This document shows, in pieces, positions 25,069 through 55,474 of a DNA stretch of 64,000 nt. Both the position numbers and the translations under genes were made by a program. Source of the stretch: Methanosaeta sp. PtaU1.Bin112. GTDB taxonomy: Archaea; Halobacteriota; Methanosarcinia; Methanotrichales; Methanotrichaceae. The notes beneath the pieces were generated by a model, which did not search any database, was not told where the DNA came from, and worked only from the letters and a program-made list of their open reading frames with translations. Every line of letters begins with the position of its first letter. The first letter of the stretch is position 1. The stretch is from positions 62,001-126,000 of the forward strand of contig MVRL01000086.1 in assembly GCA_002067705.1 (NCBI GenBank), in the 5' to 3' direction.

Positions 25069-25383
25069 TTATACAAGCACTATATCAGCCAGGCCAACCT
25101 TGCCGGCATTGGGCGTCATCCTGTAAATTGAGCCATCGATTCTGACCTCGACATAGTCGCCTTTCGGCACCGCATCAAAGTTGTGGGTGACAAGCAAGAA
25201 GGCCAGGTCCTCAGCATTTATTCGCGCATCCTCATTTGCATTGCAAAGGCTCAAAAGATCCTGATAGCCGATAGAAGCGCTGCCGCCGGGTACCATTGAT
25301 GCCATTATCCCCAAGAGGAGCAGAGCTATGAGACGGATGATGCCTCTCGCAGACATGCTATCACCAATAAACCTGATCCTCAC
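25069..25383 (-). CDS. Small exported protein with a DLAF domain shared with the 54 kb locus
   Basis: A 104-residue protein with a membrane/signal segment (IIRLIALLLLGIMASMVPGG) and a short mature part. The part INAEDLAFLLVTHNFDAVPK, then GDYVEVRIDGSIYRMTPNAG and LADI, aligns with the N-terminal domain of the transglutaminase-like protein at 54444-55118 (ITNKDLAFFLATHGFDAQPS, VYLTPNGASPRLAD). Its ATG overlaps the stop of the large pentapeptide gene upstream (4 bases), so the two are made together. Function unknown; it looks like a partner or adaptor domain for exported pentapeptide-repeat proteins. Confidence 0.7.
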   Translation of the reverse strand: MRIRFIGDSMSARGIIRLIALLLLGIMASMVPGGSASIGYQDLLSLCNANEDARINAEDLAFLLVTHNFDAVPKGDYVEVRIDGSIYRMTPNAGKVGLADIVLV

Positions 25384-27998
25384 GACCCCCTTCCCGATTG
25401 AATTTTATTGATCTCATTTTCCAGGTCAGGACTCATCCGAGTCCCATTGAGACGGCAAGAAGCGATGAAGAGAAGCGTTATCTGATCGTACTTGACTCCC
25501 ACCATATTGGCACCGCTCAGATCGACATCTGAAAGATATGTGATTGTAAGGTTAGCCCCGCTTAAATCTGCGCCTGTGAGGTTGACGTTCTCCAGCGCGG
25601 ACTTGCTGATCTCACAATTCATAAGGTCTGCATTGCTTAAATCAAGACCGTTCATGAGGACACCGCTAAATTTGGCTGAGTTGAGCGAAGCGTTATGAAA
25701 GGTCAAACCCTCTGAGCTTATTGCATAAAAGATGGCATCACTGAGATCTGCTCCTGAAAAATCGGCAGAGTTCATTTGATTGCCCTGGAAACTGATTCCT
25801 CTGAGATCGGCGCCTGAAAAATCCGCATAGGACATATCTGCATACTCCATTTTGCATCTGCTGAATATGCAACCGGATAGATTTGCCCTGGTAAGGTATG
25901 CTCTGGTAAAGTCTGACCCGCTCAGGTCCGACCGGCTGAGATCGGCAGCAAACAGCTCAGCCCTTCCGAACTGGCAGTTACGCAGCTGGCTATCACTCAT
26001 ATCGATCCAATTGAGTCTCGCTCCCAGTAAGCTGGAATTGATCAGTGATGCGTTCATTATTCTGGCGAGTGTGAAATCGGTCCCGACAAGCCTTGCCTGA
26101 CTCAGGTCAGCTCCGGAGAGATTGGCAGCATTCAGATGGGCACTGGTCAGGTCAGACTCACTCAGATCGGAACCAGAGAGATCCGAGTTGTTCAACTGGG
26201 AACCAATCAGCTTCGCGCCTTTCAGATTGGATCCTATGAGGCTGGACCGATCGATCCAGGTATCCTCAAGATTGCACCTCGATAGATTGGCATTTGATAG
26301 GTCTGATCCGGAGAGGCCTGATGCCAGGAAGCTCGAGCCGGATAGGTCTGCTCTGCTGAGATTTGCCGAAGTCAAATTGGCGAATATGGACCTGATGTGA
26401 TTCAACCGGGCAGCAGATAGATTTGCGCCCTTCATGCGTGACTCAGAGATATCGGCAAACGCCAGGCATGCGCCGGATAAATCGGCATCGATGATATTGG
26501 CTCCGATTAGGCTTGATCTGGATAGATTCGCACCATTCATTATAGAGTCCTGAAGCCTTGCCCGATTCATAAAAGCGCCTACAAATTGCGAGTCGCTCAT
26601 ATCGGACAGGCTCAGATTTGCAGCCTCAAATCGAGCTCCGCTGAGGTTTGTGCTTCTTAAAACAGATCCGGTTATCCGGGCTTGATCGAGATTCGATCCG
26701 CTCAGATCCGCGCCGCTTAGATTTGATCCGATAATATTGGCACCCGCCAGGTTAGCACCTTTGATCACGGCCAGATGCAGGTCGGCGCCGTGCAGGTCAG
26801 CCTCATCAAGATTAGCGTAACTGAGGTTGCTTCCTGCAAGTCGGGCATCGGATAGATTGGACCGCACAAGATTGGAATAACTCAGGTCTGTGCCCACTAA
26901 AACCGAATCCTGCAGATCCGACTGGCTGAGATCCTTTCTGCATAATTGCAGATGGCTGAGATTCTCGGATTCAAGAGAAGAGCGAGCCTGGAATGGCTGG
27001 TTGATGATGCTGCTGCCCGGCGGCAAGAGGTCGAGAGATATGCCGAAACGAGTCAAAACAAAATAGTCAAACATATAGCGATTTAGGCACTCATTCATCA
27101 CGGGAATCTTGTCAGCGGATTCGCCCTGAAGGATAGAAAGAGCCATATCTGCAGCCTCATCTCCCTGGAAATAGCTGCTGATCATCTTTCCGCCCACGAC
27201 TCCATAGCCCAGGTAGAAATCGTATATGCTGTAGAATGGAACTGGGCTTGCTTCCTGGACGAGCTGGGCCGCGTCCTCATAGGTCAGGAAGACCCCGGAT
27301 CGATCGCGGTTCATGGTCATGAGCAGCACAAGGCTGTCATTGGACAACGATTCAAGGCTCTGGCGAAGCTCCACGGAGGTGAGGTTGTCCAGATACTGGA
27401 AGGAGATATTGCTCTCAAAGCGAGGGATGACGGCATCCAGAACCTTTCGGGCAGACTGACCGGTTGCAGTCTGATCGGTTACTATGGCAATATGCCTGCT
27501 TTGAGGATGAAGATTGAGCATGAGGGAGATTGTGCTTTCCAGATCATACGCTTCCACCACACCTGTAAAGCCATTCATTCCGTTTAGCATCTCGTCCTCG
27601 AAGTACACTACACCGCAGAAGACCACAGGTGTTCCAGGAAAGAGATCATCCCTGTTTTTCAGCAGGAAATTAAACGCATCCGTATCTACAGAGATGATGA
27701 GATCAAAAGGCCGATTTTTATATTTCTTTTGATAGAGATCCTTCAGATCGGAAAGACGGGCTGGATCGGCGGCGATTCGCTTTGCGTCCATGTATTCCAC
27801 GGAAAAAGTCGCGGAGGGCATCTTCATCGCGAAATGCAGCTTGATCTCCGAGATAATGCTATCCTCCCAGGTCATGCCGGGATGATAGGAGGCAAGGATA
27901 AGGATATTTCTGGGAGTGCTTTCCGGGACTGCAAACGAAGGTCCGATGCTAAAATAGACGAGCATTAAAATCAGGCATATTTCAATGGCAATTCTCAT
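25380..27998 (-). CDS. Exported fusion: periplasmic-binding-like sensor domain plus long pentapeptide-repeat domain
   Basis: An 872-residue exported protein. After a signal peptide (about 1-23) residues 28-320 match the ABC_sub_bind type of periplasmic domain often found as the sensor of histidine kinases: RNILILASYHPGMTWEDSII, VEYMDAKRIA, DLIISVDTDAFNFLLKNRDD, and FPGTPVVFCGVVYFEDEML. From about residue 335 to 855 the protein is continuous pentapeptide repeats of the A(D/N)LSG pattern, roughly 100 units, which form a square beta helix. There is no membrane anchor, kinase or other output domain. The protein is probably extracellular; repeats may serve as a rod or binding surface. I know of no described family with this arrangement. 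Confidence 0.85.
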   Translation of the reverse strand: MRIAIEICLILMLVYFSIGPSFAVPESTPRNILILASYHPGMTWEDSIISEIKLHFAMKMPSATFSVEYMDAKRIAADPARLSDLKDLYQKKYKNRPFDLIISVDTDAFNFLLKNRDDLFPGTPVVFCGVVYFEDEMLNGMNGFTGVVEAYDLESTISLMLNLHPQSRHIAIVTDQTATGQSARKVLDAVIPRFESNISFQYLDNLTSVELRQSLESLSNDSLVLLMTMNRDRSGVFLTYEDAAQLVQEASPVPFYSIYDFYLGYGVVGGKMISSYFQGDEAADMALSILQGESADKIPVMNECLNRYMFDYFVLTRFGISLDLLPPGSSIINQPFQARSSLESENLSHLQLCRKDLSQSDLQDSVLVGTDLSYSNLVRSNLSDARLAGSNLSYANLDEADLHGADLHLAVIKGANLAGANIIGSNLSGADLSGSNLDQARITGSVLRSTNLSGARFEAANLSLSDMSDSQFVGAFMNRARLQDSIMNGANLSRSSLIGANIIDADLSGACLAFADISESRMKGANLSAARLNHIRSIFANLTSANLSRADLSGSSFLASGLSGSDLSNANLSRCNLEDTWIDRSSLIGSNLKGAKLIGSQLNNSDLSGSDLSESDLTSAHLNAANLSGADLSQARLVGTDFTLARIMNASLINSSLLGARLNWIDMSDSQLRNCQFGRAELFAADLSRSDLSGSDFTRAYLTRANLSGCIFSRCKMEYADMSYADFSGADLRGISFQGNQMNSADFSGADLSDAIFYAISSEGLTFHNASLNSAKFSGVLMNGLDLSNADLMNCEISKSALENVNLTGADLSGANLTITYLSDVDLSGANMVGVKYDQITLLFIASCRLNGTRMSPDLENEINKIQSGRGS

Positions 27999-48900: not shown

Positions 48901-49575
48901 TCAGGCCACAGGCTGACTTGAAGCGGCTTGCTGTGCCACTACAGTCTGAGCAGCCGGAACGGTATGCTGGGCAGAAGCCGTGACCGGCAGCGGTGACAGA
49001 AGGCTGCCGAAGGCTATGCCTGGTTGGGTTATTCCCGGTGCTGTGAAGACGTACTCTCCATCCATGGAGCCCGGCTTAATAGTAAGGCTGAAGCGATACA
49101 TATTTTGACTGCCGGTCGGTACCACAAACAGCGCCAGCCTGTCACCCAGAATGCTGCCACCTGCGGTAACGGGCGTGACTGCGCCGCTCGCCGCCAGCTC
49201 TCCAGATCCGAATACTGCATCAGTGGTCTGGTAAAGATCCAGCTTGAGGTAGCTCTTGACAACATCGTTAAGGGTAAAAGCCCAGCTTCCTGCAGCCGAT
49301 GCAATGCCCACTGCGACCACCGGGGTCCTCACGCCTTTGCCAGGAACGTTGGGGCTCATCCCTGTATCCTTTCGGATCACAAACAGGTCCTCATTTCGAA
49401 AAGACAGATCGGAACCTAACGAGTTATCATTAGTCCCTTCTCCCTGAACATCCTGAGAAATCTGGTTTCCAGACATATCCTGCGTAGAATAATCCGCCTC
49501 AACGCCCAGGGCGAAGGCAGTCAGGCAGAGAGATGCCATAAAAGCCAGAGCTATTACTGAACACTTAGATCCCAT
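48901..49575 (-). CDS. Exported protein of unknown function
   Basis: A 224-residue protein with a signal peptide (VIALAFMASLCLTAFALGVE) and a low-charge, Thr/Ser/Gly/Ala-rich body ending in an Ala/Gln-rich tail. Conserved-looking piece: VRTPVVAVGIASAAGSWAFT, LNDVVKSYLKLDLYQTTDAV. No domain recognised. It is the last of the run of minus-strand exported genes, 75 bases from the beta-helix gene. Confidence 0.6.
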   Translation of the reverse strand: MGSKCSVIALAFMASLCLTAFALGVEADYSTQDMSGNQISQDVQGEGTNDNSLGSDLSFRNEDLFVIRKDTGMSPNVPGKGVRTPVVAVGIASAAGSWAFTLNDVVKSYLKLDLYQTTDAVFGSGELAASGAVTPVTAGGSILGDRLALFVVPTGSQNMYRFSLTIKPGSMDGEYVFTAPGITQPGIAFGSLLSPLPVTASAQHTVPAAQTVVAQQAASSQPVA

Positions 49576-49650: not shown

Positions 49651-51702
49651 TCAGATTATCTCGTAATGATCCACAGGCTCCATCAAAGGTTTTTCATCGA
49701 TATCGGTGCCTATGTTGTGACGCAAATCGCTGATGCCGTCATTATTGTCGTCCAGCATTCGTGTCCCATGCCAATGATTTCCCAGGATGCTCTTGAAGAT
49801 TTTACCCTGGAATCGATAGGAAAGTGCCTGAAGAGTGTTCCAGGAGTTGGTGGAAATAAATGAACTGACATCACGAGAGTTATTTATAAACGAATTTAAG
49901 TATATTTCATTTTTACTGGATTGCTGAGGATATATTCCCTCATCCAGATAAAGACCTTCCGTGTTCTGGCGAATATCATTGAAGAATAGCCGATTTAGGC
50001 TGCAATTGACCAATTTTATGCCCTGACGAGAGTCATGGACACGGTTTCCGGTGATATTGCAGCTTTTGGAGTCAATTAGTCTGATGGCCGTATCCTTGCT
50101 CGAAGCTATGTTATCCTCCAAAGTATTTTGCATGGACGAAACAATGATTATGCCATCGTTACTCTCAGACAACTCATTTGATTGCAAATTATTATAAGAT
50201 GACCGGTCCAGATTTATGCATTTATTGCTGCGGAGAATTTTATTTTCCCGGAAGTTGTTGCGGTTTGAGCCCTGGAGCAGGATTCCATTGTCATTATCAT
50301 GCAAGTGATTGAGGGAGAGGCTGGTATTCATGCAATGCTCCAGGAAAATGCCCACGGCGCAATCAAAAATATGATTTTTTAGAAGGATATTGGATTGGGC
50401 GAAGTTTAGATATATGCCTCGAACATTACTGTTACTGACCGCATTCCCTGCAATGGTATTGTTGCATGACCCAATGACAAAGATGCTTAAATTGCCGCCG
50501 CTAACCGCATTCCCTAAAAGCTGATTTTCTTCGCCGGTGCCTGTGATAATAATTCCCGTGGGATTATTCAGGATAATGTTATTTCGTAATATATTTAGGC
50601 CAGAATTGGTGATCTGCGCCCCAATATAATAATTGGAGAGAATCTGGTTTTCAGTAAAGTTATTCTGAGATGATTCTTCAAAGTATGCACCGCTGCCGGT
50701 AGTGATATTGCAAAAGGAATTTCTTGAAATGAGGTTGTTATTGGACGAGATAAGGTGAATTCCGTATTGCTTGTTGAGGTCTGCATCATTATTTTCCAGG
50801 CAATTGCCATGAGAATAATATAATGTGATTCCGCTGCCATCATTATTTTCCAGGTTGTTGCCATTGATCCTATTGCCGAGGGAGTCCCAAAGGTAGATGG
50901 CATAATCGTTTTTAAATGCGATGTTATCGGAGATCTCATTGCCCTGGGATAGATACGGATAAATGCCGTAGTCGTTATTAACCGCGGTGTTGTTATGTAT
51001 TGAATTATTATCTGCGTTTGATAAAACAATCCCATAGTCGTTGGTGATCACCGCATTGCATTCCACCAGATTGTCTCTGGACTGGTACAATTTGATGCCT
51101 ATTCCCATGTTTTCGCTGGCATTATTCCCAATGATTATATTATTGAAAGAATTGATTAGCATAATGCCCACCTGATTGTTCTCGAAGAGGCTGTTATGCG
51201 AGATCGTGTTATTCGCAGCTGAAAATACTATCAACCCGCCCAGATAGTTGTCATCCATCTCATTTGAGTCGATTGTATTATTTTCAGAAAATACAAGAAT
51301 GCCGATTGCATTGCCATTCAACGTATTGTTTGCTATTATATTGTCTCGAGAGTGTACCTGGACGGCAGCCATCGACCAGTCTTTGGCACCGGTCAGGTTC
51401 AGGCCGTCCAAACGCGATCTATTCGCAAGAATTTCTACCGTGCTGCCCCCCTCTCCTGCAACCAAGACGGGCCGGTCCTTTCCCGGAACACCCCTTATGA
51501 TCAGGCTCTTGGAAATAATGATGCTCTCATTATAGGTTCCGGGCAGTATCTCAATTATATCTCCCGCAGATGCGTCATCGATTGCTTTTTGGATGCTCTG
51601 GCCAGGCTGCAGAGAGATGAGCGATGCCTGGGCGAAAGCGACAAGCATAAGCGCTGCCAGACACCCGGAAAATATGCAAATCCGCGACCTGTTTTTCATC
51701 AT
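49651..51702 (-). CDS. Long exported NosD-like parallel beta-helix protein
   Basis: About 683 residues from ATG 51702 (51714 and 51756 are alternative starts). Signal peptide RICIFSGCLAALMLVAFAQA, then SLQPGQSIQKAIDDASAGDI and IEILPGTYNESIIISKSLII, the NosD opening, and some 20 turns of a right-handed beta helix rich in N-N-I/N-x-I-x-x-N ladders (NTIDSNEMDDNYLGGLIVFS, NIIIGNNASENMGIGIKLYQ). It ends GNHWHGTRMLDDNNDGISDL with a Ca-binding-like acidic loop. Probably a surface protein; it ends next to pentapeptide-repeat genes, another class of beta helix. Confidence 0.85.
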   Translation of the reverse strand: MMKNRSRICIFSGCLAALMLVAFAQASLISLQPGQSIQKAIDDASAGDIIEILPGTYNESIIISKSLIIRGVPGKDRPVLVAGEGGSTVEILANRSRLDGLNLTGAKDWSMAAVQVHSRDNIIANNTLNGNAIGILVFSENNTIDSNEMDDNYLGGLIVFSAANNTISHNSLFENNQVGIMLINSFNNIIIGNNASENMGIGIKLYQSRDNLVECNAVITNDYGIVLSNADNNSIHNNTAVNNDYGIYPYLSQGNEISDNIAFKNDYAIYLWDSLGNRINGNNLENNDGSGITLYYSHGNCLENNDADLNKQYGIHLISSNNNLISRNSFCNITTGSGAYFEESSQNNFTENQILSNYYIGAQITNSGLNILRNNIILNNPTGIIITGTGEENQLLGNAVSGGNLSIFVIGSCNNTIAGNAVSNSNVRGIYLNFAQSNILLKNHIFDCAVGIFLEHCMNTSLSLNHLHDNDNGILLQGSNRNNFRENKILRSNKCINLDRSSYNNLQSNELSESNDGIIIVSSMQNTLEDNIASSKDTAIRLIDSKSCNITGNRVHDSRQGIKLVNCSLNRLFFNDIRQNTEGLYLDEGIYPQQSSKNEIYLNSFINNSRDVSSFISTNSWNTLQALSYRFQGKIFKSILGNHWHGTRMLDDNNDGISDLRHNIGTDIDEKPLMEPVDHYEII

Positions 51703-51759: not shown

Positions 51760-52950
51760 TTATGAGGATACCGAAGACGAATCTTCCTGGATAGAAGAGA
51801 GGTCCGCCTTCAAATCATCGGATATCTTTGCCCCATCCATCCTGGCGTTAGAGAGCGAGTAGAGCGTAAACTGATCATACTTGATTCGCTGTAGGTTGGC
51901 TCCGGTAAGATCTGCACCTGTCATCTCCACCCTGTCCAAGGTGGCATCTCTCAAATCGGCCCCATTCATTTTAGAATTGGCCAGATACACAAGATCCAGA
52001 TTCGATCCCATGAATGAGGCCCCTGTAAGATCCACCCCTCTCAGATCCATCTCAGATAGCCTGGTTCGATCGAACTTGGCTCTTCTGAGGATTGAACCGG
52101 TAAGCCTGGCCGAGGTCAAGTCTGCATCGGAAAGATCGGCTCCCGTGAGGTTTGCACGGCTAAGGTCTGCAAAAGACATCTTGGCGGAATTCATGTTTGC
52201 GTTCATGAGCTTTGCCTCTGTCAAATCAGCATAAGAAAGGCTGGTCCACTTCATGTTGGCCCCGGTTAGGTTGGCACTCATGAGGTAAGCTCGGGTAAAA
52301 TCAGCCTCCGAGAGATCGGCGTTATGCAGGTTGGTGCTGTATAGCTCAGATCGGGAGAATTGGCCTTTCGACAGATAGCTCTCGCTCAAGTCTGCCCAGC
52401 TCACATGAGCGCCAATCATGTTTGCTCCAATCAGATAGATGCCTGTAAGATTGGCACCGGAGAGGTCGGTTCGAAACAGTCTGGCATCGGTCAGATCCGC
52501 TTCCGCCAGATTCGAATCGGAGAGATCTGCTTCTGTAAGGTCAGTCATCTTCAGGACGGCATTATTGAGTTTGGAATTGGGCATTAGAGAATAAGCTAAA
52601 ACCGCTAAAGAGAGATCAGCGCCGCTCAGATCAGCGCCACTCAGAACCGCTCCGGTTAAATCCGCATTGGCCATCTTTGTTCCCTGAAGACAGGAGTTTA
52701 AGAGCCATGCAGAACGCATATAAGTGCCACTTAGATTAGAACCGGACAGATTTGCGCCGGATATATTCGATTGATTGAGATGCATGCCGGCGAGGTTCAT
52801 CCAAGAGAGGTCCGCATTGGCCAGATCAGCTCGATCTACTACCCTGTTTAGACTGTCCAGTGGCTGGGCCGCAGAGAGGCAGCATACCGCCAACAATGCG
52901 CCGAGCATCAACATGCCAAATACATGCCAAACCATGAGATCGGTTTTCAT
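51760..52950 (-). CDS. Exported pentapeptide-repeat protein
   Basis: A 396-residue protein: signal peptide (VFGMLMLGALLAVCCLSAAQ) then about 65 pentapeptide repeats from residue 36 to 372 (DLANADLSWMNLAGMHLNQS, GANLSGSNLSGTYMRSAWLL), and a polar, Ser-rich end (SSIQEDSSSVSS). It forms a quadrilateral beta helix. Known intracellular members mimic DNA (gyrase protection); an exported one cannot do that, so a structural or binding role outside the cell is likely. The last repeat block RIKYDQFTLYSLSNARMDGA recurs in the other two pentapeptide proteins of the window. Confidence 0.88.
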   Translation of the reverse strand: MKTDLMVWHVFGMLMLGALLAVCCLSAAQPLDSLNRVVDRADLANADLSWMNLAGMHLNQSNISGANLSGSNLSGTYMRSAWLLNSCLQGTKMANADLTGAVLSGADLSGADLSLAVLAYSLMPNSKLNNAVLKMTDLTEADLSDSNLAEADLTDARLFRTDLSGANLTGIYLIGANMIGAHVSWADLSESYLSKGQFSRSELYSTNLHNADLSEADFTRAYLMSANLTGANMKWTSLSYADLTEAKLMNANMNSAKMSFADLSRANLTGADLSDADLTSARLTGSILRRAKFDRTRLSEMDLRGVDLTGASFMGSNLDLVYLANSKMNGADLRDATLDRVEMTGADLTGANLQRIKYDQFTLYSLSNARMDGAKISDDLKADLSSIQEDSSSVSS

Positions 52951-52985
52951 ATATTACCTTTAATTATCATGTGTTGCCTTTATTA

Positions 52986-54413
52986 CTATTCTCTGCCTAA
53001 TGACATTTCTAGTTTCTGGTGATACTCTTTGGAGCTATTGAGCCTCAGATCAAGTGCCTTGTCGATGGTGGCCCCATCGAGCGGAGATGCGGCCAGATAG
53101 GGCATAGTGAATTGATCGCACTTTATTCCCTCTAGATTTGCTCCCCTCATATCTGTGTCGGAGATCAGCACGATGTCCATGCTGGCATCTCTCAAGTCGG
53201 CTCCTGATAGATTCACATTCTCCATTAGGGATACGGATATAATTGCATCTCTAAGGTCGGCTCGGCTCAGGTTCGTATCCCGCATGGCCACACGACTTAT
53301 GGTAGCTCTTTTCATTATTGCTCCATGCAGGTCGGTTCCGATCATCTCCGTAAACATCAGCGAGACTCCAGTCAGATCCGCACCAGATAGATCGGTTCTT
53401 GTCAGATCCAGGTTGGGAATCACTGCTCCTTTTAGGGAAGCAGATGAGAGATTGGCTTCGGTGAGATCTGCATACGCCAGATCTGCTCGATCCAATTTGG
53501 TTCCGCTCAAGTTAGACATCATCATGTAGGCTCTGGTGAAATCCGAACCGCTCAGGTCGGAAACACTAAGATCGGCTCGATAGATCTCAGCTCGCGAGAG
53601 TTGGCTGTAAGACATTTTACATTTTCTGAGATCTGCTCCGCTCAAACGTGATGCAATCAGATTTGCACCATCCAGCAATGCGCCCCTCAATCTGGCGTTC
53701 ATGAGGTTCGCAGAGAACAGAAGGGACCCGGATAGATCTGCTTGCTCTAAATCTGCGGAGTCCATATCCGCACCGGTCAAATCCGCATTGGCAAGGTTAG
53801 CACCCGTCAGAGTAGCACCCATCATCCGTGATCCTGCCAGCGAGGCTCGGCTCATATCCGCATCGGTAAGATCTGCGCCGGTAAGGTTGACATTATTCAT
53901 AATCACACCCCTTAGATTTGCGCCGGTCAGATTTGCGCCAGACATTCTGGATTCCTGCAGAATCGCATTAGAGAGATCTGCACCGCTGAGATTTGCATTC
54001 ATTATATTTGATCCTCGGAGGTCGGCACCGCAGAGGTTTGCATGGGAGAGGTCTGAACCATACAAACGAATCCGATTCATCTTAGCGCTGGAAAAATCAG
54101 CACCCTTTGCAATGATTGATGTTAAATCGGCACCGATCATCTGGGATAGAGATAGGTCTGCTCCCTGGAGATTCGAGTAGCTCAGATCAGAGCGGTTGAG
54201 ATGAGATCGAGAGAGATTTGCACCTTGCAGATCCGAATGGGTGAGGTTTGAGCCATCATGCAGTTCATTTATCAGGTCGGATGCAATCAGATCGGCTGAG
54301 GCGACAGCTGCTAAGAGGGCCAAGACCGCGAATGTCGATATAAAATATCTGACAGTATCGCATACCACCTCATTGATGCTCATATTCTGCAATCTCCCTA
54401 TTCGCTCAAGCAT
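52986..54413 (-). CDS. Exported pentapeptide-repeat protein
   Basis: 475 residues with a hydrophobic signal/anchor at about 25-41 (FISTFAVLALLAAVASADLI) and about 80 pentapeptide repeats (GANLSRSHLNRSDLSYSNLQ ...). The C-terminal capping block is GIKCDQFTMPYLAASPLDGA, equivalent to KYDQFTLYSLSNARMDGA and KYDQITLLFIASCRLNGT in the two paralogues. Start ATG 54413, or the ATG at residue 11. It lies between the transglutaminase-like gene and the second pentapeptide gene, 35 and 30 bases apart. Confidence 0.88.
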   Translation of the reverse strand: MLERIGRLQNMSINEVVCDTVRYFISTFAVLALLAAVASADLIASDLINELHDGSNLTHSDLQGANLSRSHLNRSDLSYSNLQGADLSLSQMIGADLTSIIAKGADFSSAKMNRIRLYGSDLSHANLCGADLRGSNIMNANLSGADLSNAILQESRMSGANLTGANLRGVIMNNVNLTGADLTDADMSRASLAGSRMMGATLTGANLANADLTGADMDSADLEQADLSGSLLFSANLMNARLRGALLDGANLIASRLSGADLRKCKMSYSQLSRAEIYRADLSVSDLSGSDFTRAYMMMSNLSGTKLDRADLAYADLTEANLSSASLKGAVIPNLDLTRTDLSGADLTGVSLMFTEMIGTDLHGAIMKRATISRVAMRDTNLSRADLRDAIISVSLMENVNLSGADLRDASMDIVLISDTDMRGANLEGIKCDQFTMPYLAASPLDGATIDKALDLRLNSSKEYHQKLEMSLGRE

Positions 54414-54443
54414 GATTTCAACTCCAAGACAATACAGCGCAGA

Positions 54444-55118
54444 TTAAGCGAGCCTCCATTGCGGATTGATCGCATCGAGGTACTGAAATTCGTCGAAGCT
54501 GTAGGGTGCAAAATAGTACTCAGGGTCCTTCATTACCCCATAGTAGCTATCAATTGCAAGCCAGGCATTGAGATGGTCTTTATCCTCTACAGCTACCCAG
54601 ATATGACCCTGTGAGTCAAATCCGCTGGGATTATAGAGGAATATTACCCGATATCCAAAATCCCTATAGGTGCTATCGAGCTTTTGGGAACCGTCATAGC
54701 ACATTCCCAGAGGGGTCACAGGAAACATGGTATATCTGCTTATCTTCTTGATAAAATCCGCATTATCGGTCATGTTATAGGTAACATTGATGCGGATGGC
54801 ATCGCTGGAAATCACCTGGACCGGTCCGGCCTTGGCGGTGGGAGCAGTCATCCACAGATCAGCAAGTCTTGGCGATGCGCCGTTAGGTGTTAGATAGACT
54901 TCTTTGCCAGCCTTCAGCTTGACGATGACATAGGATTGATCCGGCGAAGGCTGTGCGTCAAAGCCATGTGTTGCAAGAAAGAATGCCAAATCCTTATTAG
55001 TGATGCCCATATCCTCATAACTGGAGAGCAGCAGCCAGAGATCATTTTCTTCAGACGCCTGGCAGGCTGAGGGGAGGTGAATCAGTATCAATGATATCAG
55101 AAGAAGATATCTTCTCAA
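54444..55118 (-). CDS. Exported transglutaminase-like protein with a DLAF domain
   Basis: A 224-residue exported protein. After the signal peptide (LLLISLILIHLPSACQASEE) residues 27-90 form the domain shared with the small protein at 25069-25383 (NKDLAFFLATHGFDAQPSPD, KEVYLTPNGASPRLAD). Residues 100-224 look like a transglutaminase/cysteine-protease fold with a possible Cys-His-Asp triad: C140 in TPLGMCYDGSQ, H172 in SQGHIWVAVED, D190 in NAWLAIDSYYG. It could cross-link or cut surface proteins. First gene of the run of exported minus-strand genes, so it may act on the pentapeptide proteins made from the same operon. The triad is my reading, not proven. Confidence 0.7.
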   Translation of the reverse strand: MRRYLLLISLILIHLPSACQASEENDLWLLLSSYEDMGITNKDLAFFLATHGFDAQPSPDQSYVIVKLKAGKEVYLTPNGASPRLADLWMTAPTAKAGPVQVISSDAIRINVTYNMTDNADFIKKISRYTMFPVTPLGMCYDGSQKLDSTYRDFGYRVIFLYNPSGFDSQGHIWVAVEDKDHLNAWLAIDSYYGVMKDPEYYFAPYSFDEFQYLDAINPQWRLA

Positions 55119-55372: not shown

Positions 55373-55474
55373 TTAGACATTGAACAAGCTAGTCAAGAAG
55401 GTGAGAGGCACTAAGAAGAGTACTACGAATCCAATTATCATCAAACCGATTGCCAGCCCATTTCCACCTGCCAT
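55373..55474 (-). CDS. Small membrane protein, 33 residues
   Basis: An excellent ribosome-binding site (AGGAGGAT, four bases before ATG 55474) introduces MAGGNGLAIGLMIIGFVVLF, then LVPLTFLTSLFNV and a stop. It is one membrane helix with a glycine-rich N-terminus and no charge except the ends. Too short for the usual gene finders. Unknown function; small helices of this kind often stabilise larger membrane complexes. Confidence 0.6.
   Translation of the reverse strand: MAGGNGLAIGLMIIGFVVLFLVPLTFLTSLFNV

Follow-up and report, generated by a model that had tools for sequence, protein, structure and literature searches.

A Methanotrichaceae-specific operon of exported β-solenoid proteins with a putative, highly divergent transglutaminase-like enzyme

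The window analyzed here, a stretch of 64,000 nucleotides from contig C86 of Methanosaeta sp. PtaU1.Bin112 (genome of 3.4 Mb, 99% complete), carries a conserved operon of exported proteins which is specific to the Methanotrichaceae and whose gene order does not arise by chance. The operon runs on the minus strand from 55118 to 48901 and consists of five genes, which encode in this order a transglutaminase-like protein (TG), two pentapeptide-repeat (PPR) proteins (P1 and P2), a NosD-like β-helix protein and a protein without family (X224). Its features, beginning with the open reading frame (ORF) of TG, are the following:

54444-55118, minus strand: TG, a two-domain exported protein of 224 aa with the start codon TTG, consisting of a signal segment, the Nd domain (about residues 22-95) and a papain/transglutaminase-like C-domain (residues 100-224); based on the ORF, an alignment of 34 homologs, AF2 models, a profile match to Transglut_core proteins and Foldseek
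54699-54701, 54603-54605 and 54549-54551, minus strand: codons of the putative triad of TG, Cys140, His172 and Asp190, respectively
52986-54413, minus strand: P1, an exported pentapeptide-repeat protein of 475 aa (PF00805, E 6.9e-83; N-terminal hydrophobic segment)
51760-52950, minus strand: P2, an exported pentapeptide-repeat protein of 396 aa with about 17 coils in residues 41-380 (PF00805, E 4.8e-89; alignment; coil register)
52216-52530, minus strand: exposed patch formed by residues 141-245 of P2, conserved along one solenoid edge (alignment and entropy of outward positions)
49651-51702, minus strand: NosD-like exported right-handed β-helix protein (PF05048, E 5.8e-74; PF13229, E 3.9e-53)
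48901-49575, minus strand: X224, an exported protein without family (orthologs at the same place in loci L036, L038, L039, L040, L041 and L044)

The original prediction, made from the letters of the window, described TG, P1 and P2 as an operon of three closely spaced genes, with the NosD-like gene beginning some 60 bases further on. The ORFs bore out this layout, with gaps of 30 and 35 bp and in-frame ATGs of the NosD-like gene at 51702/51699, about 57-60 bp past P2. The three-gene core was conserved, but the unit is larger than described and includes the NosD-like gene and 48901-49575, which follow after gaps of about 57 and 75 bp. The NosD-like gene came after the TG and PPR genes in many loci, and in near relatives the unit ended with X224. 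No match to X224 was found in Pfam or NCBIfam; weaker tandem paralogs stood behind it in L038-L041 and L044. The NosD-like protein scored above the cut-offs of PF05048 and PF13229, and reached 172 bits with TIGR04247 (the NosD of nitrous-oxide reductase maturation), whose cut-off is 300.

Homologs of TG were sought in 61 genomes, 37 of Methanotrichaceae and 24 of other families of the class, and were confined to the former (0 of the 24). Named records matching the TG profile carried Methanothrix, Methanosaeta or Methanotrichaceae labels, except for a few vague or doubtful ones, and a check for viral origin found no relative in viral contigs. At 28 of the 36 TG loci, spread over eight genera, a PPR gene was located directly downstream of TG on the same strand (27 scored loci and L037, in which P1 is cut by the contig end). 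When the TG proteins were clustered at 70% identity, 10 of the 13 clusters included this arrangement. Among the 37 family genomes, 25 contained both TG and P2, 9 contained neither, 2 contained TG only and 1 contained P2 only (Fisher p 4e-6, a value that ignores kinship and overstates independence because the family genomes are related). In the two TG-only genomes, TG sits at a contig end (G024) or is retained only in a form without Cys and His (G028). The original prediction had staked itself on such co-occurrence in other genomes, which was found. The upstream flanks, an AAA gene and an ACT regulator, were kept within the genus of the window and differed in several other genera, in which the TG-PPR pair persisted. 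Since the genome of the window contains only 6 PPR genes (places grouped by hand) and about 11 Beta_helix genes, and since the arrangement recurs across genera, the adjacency goes beyond chance. At L060-L063, a diverged TG paralog was observed with pentapeptide proteins of 559-663 aa; divergently oriented genes there encode exported-looking proteins of about 397 and 350-376 aa.

Alignment of the 34 TG homologs showed that Cys140 and His172 were kept in nearly all of them and Asp190 in all. In the AF2 model of the C-domain (pLDDT 89, pTM 0.84), the Cys starts a helix and is followed by strands bearing the His and the Asp, which is the arrangement of the transglutaminase-like superfamily (Cys at the N-terminus of a helix, then His and Asp in this order on a papain-like core). 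The triad and this predicted fold agree with the transglutaminase-like character first proposed for TG, and Cys140 is the likely nucleophile. Comparison by hhalign of TG with Methanothrix Transglut_core proteins of related genomes aligned the triads with a score of 32.3, while 20 column shuffles gave 19.7 at most and the reversed profile gave 12.0. Foldseek matches were dominated by papain-like Cys proteases, with LapG among them. TG had no match in Pfam or NCBIfam, none of the 34 homologs reached the Pfam Transglut_core model, and a sequence search of the PDB with the TG profile returned chance matches only. The motif around the Cys was GMCYDG and not the calcium-site motif GDC(E/D)D, whereas the Methanothrix Transglut_core proteins have GDCED. 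We conclude from alignment and model that TG probably represents a very divergent branch of the transglutaminase/papain superfamily; its sequence does not tell cutting, cross-linking and deamidation apart.

Catalytic residues were lost in a few copies. The TGs of L064 (9424-10104) and L065 (8482-9162) have neither Cys nor His, and the second copy of L063 (9115-9789) has no Cys; these are apparent pseudoenzymes. The idea that catalytic loss accompanies loss of the PPR neighbor fitted L064 and L065 and was rejected, for the second copy of L063 has a PPR neighbor and L066 and L068 keep the triad without one.

Residues 22-95 of TG, the Nd domain, also occur on their own, as exported proteins about 100 aa long, with several per genome. 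Neither Nd nor the TG branch has a named family in Pfam or NCBIfam. Many of the stand-alone Nd genes lie directly downstream of an exported PPR gene, some of them with a 4-bp overlap, as in a related module elsewhere in the window:

25380-27998, minus strand: exported protein of 872 aa, with an ABC_sub_bind-like domain fused to pentapeptide repeats
25069-25383, minus strand: stand-alone Nd protein of 104 aa (Nd hidden Markov model, E 1.5e-12), overlapping the 872-aa gene by 4 bp

At L072 the gene upstream of Nd encodes a β-helix protein, and the upstream gene of L086 looks alike. In the genome of the window, 4 of the 5 Nd-domain genes abut a pentapeptide or β-helix gene, an outcome with a rough chance of about 6e-8 given about 17 solenoid genes among about 3300 genes (gene number estimated). 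This adjacency, in the genome of the window and elsewhere, therefore suggests that Nd and exported β-solenoids are linked physically or functionally. Pairs like that at 25069-27998 recur in L073, L082, L095 and L101.

P1 and P2 belong to the pentapeptide-repeat family, as was originally proposed, with at least 8 contiguous A(D/N)LXX repeats and PF00805 scores of 272 and 292 bits against a cut-off of 20.2. With the Qnr/MfpA models of NCBIfam, their best score was 115 bits against cut-offs of at least 240, and they have an export-type N-terminus besides. The solenoid of P2 comprises about 17 coils of 20 residues without interruption and is flanked by conserved cap-like segments, DR.DL at the start and YDQFTLYSL..A...GA..S..L..DL at the end. 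Among its outward positions, two faces were variable, and one edge was highly conserved over residues 141-245, with a patch formed by R157, R160, Y172, N177, H182, W185, Q197, R200, E202, Y204, R220, Y222, Y240 and E245. The mean entropy of this patch was 0.43 versus 1.39 elsewhere, and none of 20000 permutations gave so conserved a block. P1 has part of the patch (R274, E276, R294, Y296 and Y314). The P1/P2 proteins are set apart by a two-part signature, Q[FL]SR[AS]E[LF]Y and, 20 residues further on, DFTRAY[LM]M, which was found in none of 8 control PPR proteins from other families of the class. Most of the P2 homologs not adjoining TG, including that of G015, keep nearly every patch residue. 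The patch as merely a docking site for TG was thus rejected; being intact without TG, it serves a TG-independent function, and conservation suggests that it is probably a ligand-binding surface of the rod itself. In G011 (locus L199), a gene for an exported-looking protein of 604 aa overlaps the end of a P2 homolog by 4 bp; we suspect from its position that this gene is NosD-like, and TG lies elsewhere without a PPR neighbor. The known sheath proteins were also considered for P1 and P2 and rejected, as the MspA and SH proteins have a different fold; no gene of the locus matched a named sheath family in a search that contained no SH profile.

Signal-like hydrophobic N-terminal segments were present in TG, P1 and P2, in line with the export first proposed for all of them, and in 50 of the 60 PPR ORFs of the examined loci, as called by a hydrophobicity scan and reading by eye without a trained signal-peptide predictor. 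Several of the 10 remaining ORFs have wrongly extended or truncated starts. No C-terminal membrane anchor was seen in P1/P2-type proteins. The original prediction also held that described pentapeptide proteins act inside the cell, which is too strong, since lumenal or exported ones are known, such as Rfr32 and At2g44920 of the thylakoid lumen and the lumenal domain of SV2C (PMC8145042).

We tentatively favor the reading that this is a cell-envelope operon in which TG docks via Nd on solenoid complexes and acts as a LapG-like peptidase rather than as a cross-linker, a reading that we regard as a good possibility while still short of probable. P1, P2 and the NosD-like protein would be capped β-solenoids external to the membrane, probably on the sheath or in the space that separates it from the membrane, and the patch of P2 would most likely bind a ligand, for example an envelope glycan or glycoprotein. 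TG would be an exported thiol enzyme (Cys-His-Asp) of the papain/transglutaminase superfamily, which Nd most likely docks onto solenoid-bearing complexes and which most likely processes or releases a solenoid-associated surface protein, as LapG does with adhesins. Processing is favored over cross-linking because P2 has no conserved lysine, because the rods have the look of separate, capped units, and because LapG and DvhG, the best studied exported transglutaminase-like enzymes acting on exported repeat proteins, are proteases (PMC13090378). Trimming is therefore the better half of the cross-link-or-trim alternative offered originally.

LapG is the closest working analogue of TG. Like LapG and DvhG, periplasmic proteases (LapG/BTLCP) which go with LapA-type adhesins, TG is an exported Cys-His-Asp transglutaminase-like protein encoded with large exported repeat-rich surface proteins, and LapG was in the Foldseek list for TG with TM 0.42-0.44. 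Unlike in those systems, the TG locus showed neither a LapD-like receptor nor genes for type I secretion, the motif of TG is not of the GDC calcium type, the similarity is undetectable by Pfam, and the partners are pentapeptide/β-helix solenoids and not giant adhesins.

Several observations weigh against LapG-like processing of solenoid complexes by TG. No PPR neighbor was found at the TG loci L044, L045, L046, L064, L065, L066, L068 and L069, and the genome G015 retains P2 but yielded no full-length TG, so P2 can do without TG. The hhalign probability was only 62%, and the Foldseek matches were weak, none with E≤1e-3 (best E 4.5e-3 and 4.2e-2, TMq up to 0.51). As TG lacks the Asp before the Cys of GDCED-type motifs, it need not act like LapG; and the compact solenoids offer few evident linkers for cleavage, so that TG may have another substrate. 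A broader version, in which Nd would be a general docking module for exported β-solenoids and a new Nd-TG class would process or covalently fasten PPR rods whose conserved face binds sheath or glycans, is more doubtful.

Among the other explanations, the one that survives best, though we consider it somewhat unlikely, is that the PPR patch and the NosD-like β-helix bind or modify an envelope glycan, with TG predicted to be a deglycosylating (PNGase-like) or glycoprotein-processing enzyme. The Arg/Tyr/Trp/His/Glu patch of P2 is independent of TG, partners of the NosD/β-helix type occur in many loci, and the P2 homolog of L199 overlaps its 604-aa neighbor; no glycosidase or lyase signature was found, which speaks against it. 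β-Helices are frequently glycan-binding. A review of the fold is cited in PMC11532034.

Assembly of the repeat proteins into a polymer by cross-linking, the other half of the original alternative, was not supported. A true transglutaminase that ties P1/P2 (and NosD) covalently to one another as a mesh at the surface, or to the sheath, would be in keeping with the superfamily triad, with the export and shared locus of the repeat proteins, and with the outward-facing, conserved Gln60 (21/21) and Gln197 (19/21) of P2. However, no lysine was conserved at 90% or more in P2 homologs, and only K431 was so among P1 homologs; the solenoid ends carry cap-like conserved segments; and the conserved surface of P2 is one compact patch and does not extend all round, as the surface of a lattice would. 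Microbial members of the transglutaminase superfamily are, moreover, mostly thought to be peptidases. Amyloid-like hoops and disulfides have already been named as the source of the sheath's toughness (PMC11576556, PMC6242892), which therefore needs no cross-linking enzyme as an explanation. We consider this role of TG unlikely. Slightly less likely still, TG and Nd could be export or folding helpers for β-solenoids and not enzymes that act on the surface: Nd accompanies solenoid genes without a catalytic domain, and dead TG copies exist (the second copy of L063, L064 and L065), but most copies retain the triad, and L064 and L065 have no PPR neighbor. That unrelated exported proteins are neighbors by descent only, TG having no functional link to solenoids, is disfavored as very improbable, for although the AAA gene and the ACT regulator are also syntenic in the genus of the window, the linkage is kept where the flanks differ and reappears at L060-L063 and L067, where diverged TG paralogs stand beside PPR proteins of other types, TG and P2 are jointly present or absent, and Nd independently adjoins other solenoid genes.

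Other known systems share single features with the locus. The Cys, His and Asp of Transglut_core (PF01841) align with TG by profile in order and spacing, but TG has a lineage-specific N-domain and 0 of 34 homologs reach the Pfam model. Qnr/MfpA, HetL, Np275/276, Rfr32 and At2g44920 have the same repeat and the expected quadrilateral β-helix, and the lumenal ones are also exported, whereas P2 is longer (about 17 coils), P1 longer still, and both carry the P1/P2 signature and are linked to TG and NosD. The sheath proteins SH and MspA (Methanothrix/Methanospirillum) are likewise exported to the envelope, in the same organisms or in similar ones, but consist of amyloid-like antiparallel β sheets without pentapeptide repeats; a survey of the sheath makes no mention of pentapeptide, NosD or transglutaminase proteins (PMC11576556). 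Adhesin-like proteins of Methanobrevibacter and Methanosphaera are archaeal surface proteins with a right-handed β-helix and, separately, TG-like domains; unlike here, these domains stand in single membrane-anchored proteins without pentapeptide repeats, and their TG-type proteins have no β-helix. The original prediction knew of no description of such a system, and our literature search, with most subscription journals outside its coverage, likewise found no paper that has 'pentapeptide repeat' and also names Methanosaeta or Methanothrix.

An ORF for a hydrophobic microprotein of 33 aa, MAGGNGLAIGLMIIGFVVLFLVPLTFLTSLFNV, was observed at 55376-55474 on the minus strand, in the interval that separates TG from the divergent AAA gene. 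Copies with at least 77% identity occur in 15 other loci, and weaker copies in L053 and L070.

The protein families involved are known; the arrangement, the Nd domain, the TG branch, the lineage and the class of repeat protein are new. Methanothrix is a major biological source of methane and lives in a protein sheath of unusual toughness. How this sheath is built and remodelled is poorly understood, and a lineage-wide operon of an exported enzyme and solenoids offers a concrete entry point to these processes. The patch and the catalytic Cys name residues to mutate, which provides a test case for the function, so far largely unknown, of pentapeptide-repeat proteins outside the cell. If Nd does dock on solenoids and Nd-TG acts on rods that bind sheath or glycans, these proteins would constitute the first functional class of extracellular pentapeptide-repeat proteins and an undescribed extracellular system of the Methanotrichaceae.

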